Shown here: positions 35,673-41,191 of the stretch, one piece after another
Layout of the letters: every line of letters starts with the position of its first letter
How positions within the stretch are numbered: position 1 is the stretch's first letter
NCBI RefSeq assembly: GCF_013372285.1
Contig: NZ_CP054301.1
Span: forward strand, 2,032,001 to 2,096,000
DNA: 64,000 bases
From: Marinomonas primoryensis
GTDB taxonomy: Bacteria > Pseudomonadota > Gammaproteobacteria > Pseudomonadales > Marinomonadaceae
Direction: 5' to 3'
Notes under the pieces: model-generated
Databases searched by the model: none
What the model was told of the DNA's origin: nothing
Seen by the model: only the letters and a program-made list of their open reading frames with translations
Position numbers and translations under genes: made by a program

Positions 35673-37238
35673 ATGAAAGTCCGTTCAAAGATTTTAATTC
35701 CTGTTACTTTGGGCCTAATGATGTCTGCTTGCAGTACATCCTCCAGCCAACAGACATCGTCTGTGATTGTGCCAGAAGTTAGTAATACCGATACATCGCC
35801 TCAAAGCCCTATTGTTAGTGCAAGTAATAGCGAGTTAGATAAGGGAATAGCCTCAAAACAAGTGCTTATAGAATCTCTCCAGCGACAACTTGCTGACAAT
35901 GAAAGACAGCTGTCGTTTCTTAACCTGTCTCTTAATGAGAAGGACAGGGCTATAGCGGATTTACAAAAATCTTCGTCCAACGCAGAATCGTTAGCCGCAT
36001 TAGAAGAGCAGAAAAAATCGCGAGAAACGCTAGAATCACGTTATGCTGCATTAAAGCTGGATAACGATTTACTGACTCGTCGTATCAATCAACTAGAAAA
36101 TGAAAATACCTCATTAAAGCAGCAGGTTTCTAGTTTAGAATCTATGCCTACATCACAAGATGGCTTTAAGCAAAGTTACCTTACTCTATTGAGTGAGAAT
36201 ACCGAGTTACAAAATAAATACGCCAATTTAGAAGCTGACAATAAAGCGAATCAAAAACAACTTTCTATGTTGAAAAAAGAAAACTTGATACTGGGTGGTG
36301 CATTGTCTGATGCAAGAGCTCAGCACCAAGTCTTGTGGGATGAAATTCGCTCCTTACGAGATGATTCAGATCAAATGAATACATCAATTCAACCTTTGGA
36401 TTCAAGCTCACTATCGGAAACCAACCCCGTTTTTGATTACGCTCGTGAAAATACGCAAATTCGAATGGACTTAGCAAATCTACAGAAGCAGGTTGCAGAG
36501 CAGAAACTGATCATTGAAGAATATCAAAGTGATGTTTTAAAACTAGAGTCGGCGCTTGATGAAGGTGCTGACTATGAAGCGCGCTGGAAAGAGCTTGACG
36601 ATAAACTGGCTCAAGCTCAGCAAGACAATGTGGCATTGTCGTCTCAACTTAATGCCGCTGGTGCAGAGCTCGCTGCAAGCCAAACTGAACTGAGTGCACT
36701 GTCTGCTCGACTTGGCACTACTAAACAGATGTTAGAGTCGAAAGAAAACAATGACATTTCGTTAGCGGCTGCGATAGAGTCTTTCCAATTGCAGTTGAGC
36801 TCGACTCTGCAGAATGTGACGTGGCAGCTTCCTAATGAAATAGCGTTGCATAACAACTTTGAAATTTTAGTGTCGGCTGACGTTCAGCCTTCCCTTTCTG
36901 GCCAAACTTATCAAGCTGAGCTGGTAACAGACAGTGAAATCAATATGATTAGTGATCGACTAGCAACGGCAGTGGTTCAAGGTGGTCGTTTGCAGTGGCG
37001 TTGGCGGGTATCGGGTTTAAATGAAAAGCCGGTAGCGCAACTCAACTTATTTGTCAGTCAGCAAATTAATTTCGAAGACCAATCTATCCAAAGACAGGTT
37101 TATCGTGGAAATGAAACTTTATCCTTGATCAATACCAACTTGTTTGAAAAGTATGGCTATTGGGTAGGCGCGATTTTATTGGGCTTGTTGGGTGGTTTTC
37201 TTATCGGTCGTCTTAACAAATCGAAAAACACGCTGTAA
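35673..37238 (+). CDS. Putative coiled-coil lipoprotein with C-terminal membrane segment
   Basis: I do not recognise a named family. The 521-aa protein begins with a lipoprotein signal ending MSAC (Cys20). A Ser/Thr-rich linker follows, then a very long heptad-rich coiled coil (about 50-360, with many LxxxNxxLxxQ patterns) and a beta-rich part (about 365-485). It ends with a hydrophobic segment (YWVGAILLGLLGGFLIG, about 495-512) and a short basic tail. A lipid at one end and a membrane segment at the other could let it bridge two membranes or loop back to one. AAGGAG lies before the ATG. A 9-bp tandem repeat starts immediately after its stop codon. Confidence 0.75.
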   Translation: MKVRSKILIPVTLGLMMSACSTSSSQQTSSVIVPEVSNTDTSPQSPIVSASNSELDKGIASKQVLIESLQRQLADNERQLSFLNLSLNEKDRAIADLQKSSSNAESLAALEEQKKSRETLESRYAALKLDNDLLTRRINQLENENTSLKQQVSSLESMPTSQDGFKQSYLTLLSENTELQNKYANLEADNKANQKQLSMLKKENLILGGALSDARAQHQVLWDEIRSLRDDSDQMNTSIQPLDSSSLSETNPVFDYARENTQIRMDLANLQKQVAEQKLIIEEYQSDVLKLESALDEGADYEARWKELDDKLAQAQQDNVALSSQLNAAGAELAASQTELSALSARLGTTKQMLESKENNDISLAAAIESFQLQLSSTLQNVTWQLPNEIALHNNFEILVSADVQPSLSGQTYQAELVTDSEINMISDRLATAVVQGGRLQWRWRVSGLNEKPVAQLNLFVSQQINFEDQSIQRQVYRGNETLSLINTNLFEKYGYWVGAILLGLLGGFLIGRLNKSKNTL

Positions 37239-37301
37239 TACTAGAAATACTAGAAATACTAGAAATACTAGAAATACTAGAAATACTAGAAATACTAGAA
37301 A
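37239..37301. repeat. Perfect tandem repeat, 7 copies of TACTAGAAA
   Basis: Seven exact head-to-tail copies of a 9-bp unit (63 bp) begin at the base after the stop codon of the lipoprotein gene. There are no spacers, so it is not CRISPR. The unit contains CTAG, a tetranucleotide that is scarce in many proteobacteria. The array should be prone to copy-number change by slippage. Confidence 0.97.
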
Positions 37302-37328
37302 TGCTTAAATTCTACTAATAAGTGAATA

Positions 37329-37353
37329 AGTGCGGAACCGTTGGTTCCGCACT
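37329..37353 (+). terminator. Hairpin downstream of the repeat array, possible terminator
   Basis: The 11-bp arms AGTGCGGAACC and GGTTCCGCACT enclose a 3-base loop. Only GTCTTCC follows, without a real T-run, so termination is plausible but unproven. Confidence 0.5.
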
Positions 37354-37456
37354 GTCTTCCCGTCGAATCATTCAACTCCTCATTACTATTTTTCAACGTC
37401 AAAACAATCGCTTTTCGGTATAGTACCTCTGCATATTCTTTTTTGAGGTGGTGAGA

Positions 37457-40400
37457 GTGGTAAAGTCCGATTCGTATTCTATTATTGAGAAACGACTAGC
37501 TGAAAATGTATTAATCCTTGATGGTGCCATGGGCACCATGATCCAAGCGTATAAATTAGAAGAGCAGGATTACCGTGGCGATCGTTTTGAAGATTGGAAC
37601 AGTGACGTAAAAGGCAATAATGACCTATTGTCCCTGACTCAACCTAAAATCATTAAAGACATTTATTCAGCTTATCTTGCCGCTGGCGCGGACATTATTG
37701 AAACCAACACCTTTAACGCCAACTATATTTCCATGCTGGATTACGGCATGGAATCGCTTAGCTACGAGCTTAATTTTGAATCGGCTCGTTTGGCACGTGA
37801 AGCCGCAGATGCGTTCACTAGCAAGAATCCAAACAAACCTCGTTTTGTGGCAGGTGCTGTTGGGCCAACCAGCCGTACGTGTACCATTTCACCGGATGTA
37901 AATGATCCAGGCTTTCGTAATGTACATTTCGATGAGCTAGTTGAGGCATATACAACAGCGGTCGATGGATTGGTCAAGGGTGGTGTTGATCTTATTCTGA
38001 TTGAAACCATATTTGATACCTTGAACGCCAAAGCTGCGATTTATGCCGTATTGGACTATTTCGAAAAAACCGGTGTGCGTTATCCCATCATGATTTCTGG
38101 CACCATTACCGATGCCTCAGGCCGAACGCTTTCTGGGCAAACGACTGAAGCGTTTTGGAATTCTATTTCGCATGCAAAACCTATTTCCGTCGGATTAAAC
38201 TGTGCGTTAGGGCCAAAAGAGTTACGCCAATATATAGAAGAGCTATCTCGTATTGCTGACACCCATGTGTCAGCTCACCCCAATGCTGGCTTGCCAAATG
38301 CTTTTGGTGAATACGACGAATCACCTGATGAGATGCTTGAAGAAATTCAAGGTTGGGTAGACGCCGGTTTCTTAAACATTATTGGCGGTTGTTGTGGTAC
38401 GGCGCCAAGTCATATCGAAACGTTTGCAACCGCTTTTGCAGACGCCATACCGCGTGTTATTCCCACTATTGAAAAAGCCTGTCGACTGTCTGGTTTAGAA
38501 CCTTTTAACATCGATGGCAGTAATTTGTTTGTAAACGTTGGTGAACGAACCAATGTGACTGGTTCTGCCATGTTTAAACGTCTTATTAAAGAGGGCGATT
38601 TTGACACGGCATTGAGCGTAGCTCGTCAGCAAGTTGAAAACGGCGCACAGATTATCGACATCAACATGGATGAAGGCATGTTGGACTCTCAGGCGGCCAT
38701 GGAGCGCTTCCTAAAGCTGATCGCGTCGGAGCCTGATATCTCTCGCGTACCAATTATGTTGGACTCATCAAAGTGGGAAATTCTGGAAGCGGGATTGAAG
38801 TGGGTTCAGGGTAAAGGCGTTGTGAACTCCATCAGCATGAAGGAAGGCGAAGAAAACTTTAAAGAACAAGCTCGTAAGCTAATGAAATACGGTGCAGCAG
38901 TTATCGTCATGGCGTTTGATAGTGACGGTCAGGCAGATACTCGTGCGCGTAAAATAGAAATTTGTCGTCGCTCATACCATATTCTGGTAGACGAAGTTGG
39001 TTTTCCACCAGAAGACATTATTTTCGACCCAAATATTTTTGCGATTGCCACAGGCATTGAAGAGCACAATCGCTATGCATTAGATTTTATCGAGGCTACC
39101 GGCGACATTACTCGGGAATTGCCTTACGCCAAAGTGTCTGGTGGCGTGTCGAATGTGTCTTTTTCATTCCGTGGAAACAATCCTGTACGTGAAGCCATTC
39201 ACACCGTGTTTCTCTATCATGCCATCCAGCAAGGCATGACAATGGGGATTGTGAATGCAGGGCAATTGGCCTTGTATGAAGACATTCCAATTAAACTTAG
39301 AAATGCCGTTGAAGATGCCGTGCTTAACCGCACGCCAGATGCAACGGACAACTTGCTTGCTATGGCGGGTGAGTTCGCAGGAACAGGTGAAGTAGCCGAA
39401 AAAGAAACACAAGAATGGCGTAGCTTGCCGGTCTCAGAGCGCTTAAGTCATGCACTTGTTAAAGGTATTACCGACTTTATTGATGAAGATACAGAAGAGG
39501 CCCGTTTAGCCTTTGATCGACCATTGGAGGTTATCGAAGGGCCTTTAATGGATGGTATGAGTATTGTTGGTGATTTGTTTGGCGCAGGTAAAATGTTCTT
39601 ACCTCAAGTCGTAAAATCTGCTCGGGTAATGAAAAAAGCAGTGGCGTTTTTGATGCCGTATATCGAAGAAGAAAAAGCACGCAACATGGACACAGGATCA
39701 TCAAGCAATGGCAAAATAGTCATGGCAACGGTGAAAGGCGATGTTCACGACATTGGTAAAAATATTGTTGGGGTTGTGTTGCAGTGTAACAACTTTGAAG
39801 TCATCGATTTGGGCGTTATGGTGCCAGCTGAGAAAATTTTGCGTACAGCAAAAGAAGTAGGCGCTGACATGATCGGGTTGTCTGGTCTGATTACGCCGTC
39901 TCTTGATGAGATGGTTCATGTAGCCAAAGAAATGGAGCGTCAAGGTTTTGAATTACCCGTTATGATAGGCGGTGCAACCACGTCGAAAGCACATACCGCT
40001 GTCAAAATTGAACAAAATTACAAACGTAATCAAGTCGTTCATGTGACCAATGCATCGCGTAGTGTTGGTGTAGCAAGTGCGTTACTAAGCAAAGACAAGG
40101 AGCGTCGTCAAAAATTCGTAGACGAGATAAAAGCAGATTATGAAAAAACGCGTATCCGTTATAAAGATCGAGTCAAGGCTGGCCGTCGCGTTTCTTTAAG
40201 TAAGGCGCGTTTAAACAAAGCACCCATCGAGTTTTCTGGGGCTATTGTGACACCGAAAAAAGTGGGCTTGACTGTGCTCACTGAAAAAGATATCGATTTC
40301 GAGGTTGTCAAAAAATACATTGATTGGACGCCGTTTTTCCAAACATGGGAATTGGCCGGAGCTTATCCTCGCATTCTTACGGACGCAGTTGTTGGGGTTG

Positions 40401-41191
40401 AAGCGACCCGTGTTTTTGCCGATGCCCTGGAAATGCTTGATGAAGTGATTGCAACGAAATGTTTGCAAGCTCGAGCGGTTGTGGGTGTGTTTCCTGCAAA
40501 CCAAGTGAACGACGATGACATCGAACTTTATGCGGATGAATCTCGCACCGAAGTTATTGAAAAATTATCATTTCTACGCATCCAAAATGAACTTACGGCG
40601 CCAGGAAAATACAATCATAGCTTGTCTGACTTCGTTGCGCCAAAAGACAGTGGTGTTGCGGATTATATGGGTGCATTTGCGTGTGCTGCTGGCTTTGGCA
40701 TTGATCCCCTTGTGGCTAAATATGAAGCGGATTATGACGATTATAACTCCATCATGATTAAAGCTGTGGCAGATCGTTTGGCTGAAGCAACTGCAGAATA
40801 TTTACATGAGAAAGTTCGTAAAGAAATTTGGGGTTACGCTGCGGCAGAAGACCTGACTAATGAGCAGTTAATTAAAGAAAAATACCAAGGGATTCGTCCA
40901 GCTCCTGGCTATCCTGCTTGTCCGGATCACACTGAAAAAGCAAAACTGTGGACACTTTTAGATGTTAAAAACAACATCGATATGGACATTACTGAAAGCT
41001 TTGCCATGTTACCCACCGCAGCCGTTAGTGGCTGGTACTTTGCTCATCCTGATGCAACGTATTTTGGTGTCGGCAAAATTGGTCCTGATCAAGTAGACAG
41101 TTATGCTGAGCGTAAAGGAATGAGTAAAGACGATGCAGAGCGCTGGTTGGCACCAAATCTTGGTTACGATCCAGAAGACGACCGAGTCTGA
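37457..41191 (+). CDS. metH: Cobalamin-dependent methionine synthase MetH
   Basis: Transfers methyl from methyltetrahydrofolate to homocysteine through methylcobalamin. About 1244 aa, with all four modules: homocysteine-binding (GGCCGT zinc ligands near 315), pterin-binding ([11 protein letters not shown] near 355), B12-binding with DVHDIGKN (the cobalt-ligand His near 760), and the AdoMet reactivation domain ([12 protein letters not shown] near 1150). Three GTG codons compete as start; GTG 37457 has GAGG 8 bases before and is chosen, the others being 37448 and 37451. No cobalamin riboswitch was recognised upstream. A corrinoid adenosyltransferase gene follows. Confidence 0.97.

Follow-up and report, generated by a model that had tools for sequence, protein, structure and literature searches.

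Bacterial minisatellites and VNTR loci serve MLVA typing. The tandem array described here, from a 64,000-nucleotide stretch of the Marinomonas primoryensis genome that was analysed as a whole (the window), resembles them in its short unit, its identical copies placed head to tail, its intergenic location and a copy number that differs between relatives (1 versus 7). It differs from them in that the variation is seen between species, with one genome each. Phase-variable regulatory tandem repeats provide a second comparison, as these repeats are also found beside the gene of an outer-layer protein. However, the array stands behind its gene, after the stop codon and before a hairpin, and lies neither in a promoter nor in a coding frame; additionally, its 9-bp unit is unable to shift a reading frame. 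We read the array as a private 9-bp minisatellite and candidate VNTR that arose by recent slippage and is probably neutral, and we place the probability of this reading at about 0.87.

Structure and position of the array

The array consists of seven identical, contiguous copies of TACTAGAAA and begins at the base directly 3' of the TAA stop codon (37236-37238) of a predicted lipoprotein gene (Table 1). Tandem Repeats Finder (TRF) reported 7.3 copies with a period of 9 and 100% matches. Together with the exact-copy count and the position of the open reading frame, this confirmed the first-pass annotation, which had described seven exact 9-bp copies immediately after a lipoprotein stop. We have no explanation other than chance for an array start exactly at the stop codon.

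Outside the array, the TACTAGAAA 9-mer is absent from both strands of the window (100 shuffles gave a mean of 0.61 copies and a maximum of 3), and the array is the sole perfect one in the window with a period of 4-60 and at least 2.6 copies. The first-pass annotation had also drawn on a supposed scarcity of CTAG, an argument that is wrong for the window, where 135 CTAG sites lie outside the array versus 128.5 expected (ratio 1.05). The lipoprotein frame reads TAG within the unit and nothing backs the two remaining frames, which are open, so the array was rejected as a coding tail. A CRISPR array was rejected on the basis of units that are contiguous without spacers.

Table 1. Coordinates of the array, its neighbouring features in the window and four arrays within genes of Bacteroidales genomes
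Feature	Position	Strand	Basis or remark
Array, 7 x TACTAGAAA	37239..37301; maximal perfect period-9 run 37237-37302	+	TRF and exact-copy count
Predicted lipoprotein gene, 521 aa	35673..37238	+	ORF; homologue in 48/48 genus genomes
Hairpin behind the array	37329..37353	+	Perfect stem, -18.4 kcal/mol for 37329-37353
Conserved metH-side block: probable promoter and leader 37363-37447 and first metH codons	37363..37482	+	119/120 identical to nearest species
metH, B12-dependent methionine synthase	37448..41191	+	Five Pfam domains including Met_synt_B12
TruB-like gene array	L127:14871-14928		Junction of TruB domains
RNase R-like gene array	L134:8025-8100		Inside RNB domain
Fucose pyrophosphorylase gene array	L137:9835-9883
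Nucleotidyltransferase gene array	L135:8476-8533

Comparison across the genus

The region after the stop codon of the lipoprotein homologue was scored in 48 genomes of the genus (30 + 18 loci), with one genome per species. metH was recognised close downstream of the homologue in 42 of the 48, and where it was not recognised the 200 nt after the stop were examined for arrays. In one genome only, the window's own, is the stop followed by a perfect array of 2.5 copies or more. In G031, the nearest species at 95% protein identity, the array site holds one unit length that matches TACTAGAAA at six of nine bases. The distance from the stop codon to a metH motif is 281 nt in the window and 227 nt in G031, a difference of 54 bp or 6 x 9, and the two relatives therefore differ in length at the homologous site by a whole number of units. 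When the array was first collapsed to one unit, the intergenes of the two species aligned without gaps, with identities of 20/26 in the spacer, 31/35 in the hairpin stretch and 119/120 in the metH-side block. Since the sister state is one unit length, the array is most simply explained by six units gained in the window's genome. The recent expansion proposed from the first reading is thus supported by a nearest species with one diverged unit length and an intergene exactly 54 bp shorter.

The seven units show no differences among themselves. Between the window and G031, 89 of the 521 third codon positions of the lipoprotein gene differ, as do 6 of the 26 spacer bases. By our own arithmetic, an old array drifting like third positions should have gathered about five changes across its 63 bp on the window's own branch. 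As none is seen, either the array is young or ongoing slippage keeps it uniform.

Slipped-strand mispairing at replication probably duplicated the 9-mer beside the stop codon and then multiplied the copies, an expansion that the presumably weak constraint between stop codon and hairpin would have allowed. It adds 54 bp to the untranslated stretch and probably has no other effect. The lengthening of this stretch, as had been suggested, follows from the position of the array between the stop codon and the hairpin.

Tandem arrays can mislead assembly, and the copy number might on that account be an artefact of assembly or sequencing. We consider this very improbable, as 63 bp is less than an ordinary read length, the genome assembles into a single contig of 4,068,722 bases and the flanks are co-linear between the window's genome and the sister. 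The unit also looks like a scar that cloning leaves next to a ribosome-binding part; given the same co-linear natural flanks, this origin was rejected and the resemblance judged a coincidence.

At most, the locus may be of use for telling strains of Marinomonas primoryensis apart by PCR length. It also provides a clean case of unit-by-unit expansion at a stop codon in which the one-unit state is still visible in the nearest species. The array tells nothing new on metH or the lipoprotein.

The hairpin and the metH side

The product of the upstream gene matched no Pfam family above the cut-off and is predicted to be a lipoprotein, as judged from its N-terminus. The hairpin behind the array is a possible transcription end. 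A T run behind it is absent in the window's genome and in the nearest species, and a terminator scan found no terminator at the locus. A hairpin of -15 kcal/mol or lower follows the homologue's stop in 36 of 48 genus genomes versus 5 of 240 shuffles, and at -8 kcal/mol or lower the counts are 44/48 and 88/240, respectively. Half of the genomes (24/48) show a T-rich tail behind the hairpin, the window's genome and its sister not among them. Across the genus, the hairpin stays at the same place after the lipoprotein gene and varies widely in sequence.

The array sits between the stop codon and this hairpin, and a hairpin lacking a T run could let transcription continue towards metH. Copy number might therefore tune the lipoprotein mRNA through 3' end formation, stability or readthrough to metH, and so act as a slow expression switch. 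We regard such a switch as improbable, given that the array is present in 1 of 48 genus genomes and that the hairpin folds alone, independently of the array, in both species (-19.5 kcal/mol in the window versus -17.8 kcal/mol in G031). Moreover, the predicted fold of the array by itself gives merely weak 4-bp pairings.

Beyond the hairpin lies the metH-side block, which is recognisable by eye in most of the relatives inspected. Its segment 37363-37447 is the probable promoter and leader of metH, of which we infer the promoter. The first-pass annotation had suggested an array of protein-binding sites ahead of metH. The seven palindromic CTAG sites at a constant 9-bp step would suit a binding array that acts on metH or on local DNA, and CTAG at a 9-bp step with varying spacers recurs in some Bacteroidales genomes, as described below. 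However, several observations make this a very remote prospect. The proposed search for other TACTAGAAA arrays was run over the whole genome and returned the two-copy pattern at this locus only. Four consecutive CTAGN5 units occur nowhere else in the whole genome, and among the 56 genomes searched they were found in the window's genome alone, at this single locus. In a 400-kb sample of the same genome, CTAG is not phased at 9 bp, with three pairs at that distance and no chains. Conservation across relatives, as for a protein-binding array, is not seen either (1/48), and the metH-side block is all but unchanged in the array-less sister (119 of 120 bases). Regulation of metH by a bound protein would need relevance in a single species and action from beyond the hairpin, and the suggestion is unsupported.

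A known structured RNA was considered and rejected, as the two Rfam matches within 36800-37700 scored well under their gathering thresholds (IS128 with 21 bits versus 80 and Atu_C9 with 12.3 bits versus 40). The array was likewise rejected as the source of a new promoter. The interval 37000-37600 holds two promoter-like sites, one of which overlaps the array start, versus 1.7 expected.

Other short arrays in the genome and the genus

The 400-kb sample of the window's genome comprised 20 stretches. Besides the window array, two perfect arrays reached three copies or more in it, with 3.8 copies each. One repeats a 10-mer and lies at the 5' edge of an open frame, probably ahead of the start, and the other repeats a 9-mer within an open frame. 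The window array, with 7.3 copies, exceeds both, which is a counterpoint to the minisatellite reading. It is the longest seen in comparison with this sample, yet not the sole example of its kind. Longer tandem arrays with periods of 78 and 45 were reported by TRF at L155:14955-15136 and L155:15560-15699 of the same genome, and both have a GGAGAGAACAAAAA stretch in common.

A backwards control pattern, GATC every 9 bp, was found in 16 of the 56 genomes, including 12 of the 34 other genus genomes. When one match per genome was inspected in these 12, 10 lay within open frames 296 codons or more in length. Repeated Asp-His-His or Asp-Gln-Gln tripeptides, with up to 10.6 perfect copies, are encoded in several of them, and the His/Asp repeats look like metal-binding stretches. 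L077, L082 and L087 (G003, G015 and G012, respectively) each have a perfect 9-bp array of some 10 copies within an open frame, encoding Asp-Gln-Gln or Asp-His-His. An intergenic perfect 9-bp array of 5.9 copies and unrelated sequence is found in G006 (L081:1497-1549), flanked by two minus-strand genes. The occurrence of 9-bp arrays of other sequence in relatives indicates that perfect 9-bp arrays arise repeatedly in the genus.

Matches to the unit in other genomes

A scan of genome_contigs for three exact TACTAGAAA copies identified eight stretches in seven genomes besides the window's own. Six of the eight are from five MAGs titled Bacteroidetes, Bacteroidales, Bacteroidaceae or Prevotella; the remaining two are from a Pirellula MAG and from a Planktothrix MAG, the latter within a 771-codon open frame. 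With about 14,500 classes of 9-mers, by our own estimate, chance sharing is expected, and no kinship with the window is read from these matches. The same three-copy search of viral_contigs gave 0 matches, and a viral source of the array was rejected. The sole two-copy match in another genome (G039, L002) lies inside what appears by eye to be a chemotaxis-receptor gene and was set aside as unrelated.

Phased CTAG arrays in Bacteroidales genomes

Some Bacteroidales MAGs carry CTAG every 9 bp, with differing bases in the five positions between and many arrays per genome. When the four-unit CTAGN5 pattern was counted per strand with overlapping matches, which are not numbers of arrays, G094 had 251, G099 108, G095 53, G100 30 and G097 24, whereas the Pirellula MAG (G096) had 2 and the Planktothrix MAG (G098) none. 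Within the family of G095, 32 of 151 genomes contain the pattern (backwards control 2/151), as do 5 of 119 genomes of its order (backwards control 2/119). The arrays were located at L119-L138 and L190-L198 (genomes G094, G099, G347, G095 and G303).

In 300 kb of G094, CTAG was found 238 times versus 566 expected (0.42), and it is depleted outside the arrays. The CTAG pairs of this genome that lie within 40 bp are spaced at 9 (80 pairs), 18 (72), 27 (63) and 36 bp (56), and six other distances have a single pair each. Distinct spacers number 36 of 48 in G099 and 32 of 75 in G094. Spacing is looser in G347, with some CTAG pairs at 7, 8, 10, 16, 17 and 19 bp. Because the arrays had been found by CTAG, a near-constant CTAG at each position is partly built in, and all 256 4-mers were therefore tried. 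CTAG formed the most step-9 chains in G099, G347, G095 and G303, and in G094 it ties for first with the overlapping TCTA. The stretches had been picked for holding matches in the case of 6 of the 15 of G094 and all of those of G099, G347, G095 and G303, but not those of G234 and G282. In the nine stretches of G094 that were not so picked (180 kb), CTAG formed one chain and GGCT two. No array was present in 120 kb of G234, although the whole genome has 104 matches.

These arrays resemble the window array in the CTAG at every 9 bp, and TACTAGAAA itself occurs among them. They differ in occupying many loci per genome, in their varying spacers and in being found also in frame within genes, whereas the window array has identical units at one locus. 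It lacks both defining features, variable spacers and many loci, and is therefore not filed with the Bacteroidales pattern. That it could be the young founder of a process of the Bacteroidales type, which would recognise, keep and spread 9-bp-phased CTAG and would here have made its first uniform array, is in our judgement extremely doubtful.

A literature search on titles and opening lines of abstracts gave no account of phased CTAG arrays. Should the pattern be confirmed in isolates, it would indicate a process, as yet undescribed, that recognises DNA or spreads repeats, and we attach a larger value to this side observation than to the window array.

Some of the Bacteroidales arrays fill short intergenic gaps, such as L133:3097-3136 in a gap of 48 bp. 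Others lie in frame within conserved genes, where they encode Ser/Thr-rich tripeptides (Table 1). By a crude ORF call, an ORF of at least 90 aa is overlapped by 16 of 20 arrays, which is not a count of coding arrays, as several of the ORFs look spurious. When the TruB of G094 was compared with 41 genomes of the family, 35 matched in two pieces, ending at residues 161-165 and resuming at 203-204, which indicates that the residues between are an insertion in G094. Among 20 TruB loci examined, the anchor motif was found in 11 and a CTAG array in that of G094 alone. The TruB at L160 (G368) has a long insertion without CTAG at the same place as that of G094, and the site seems prone to insertions.
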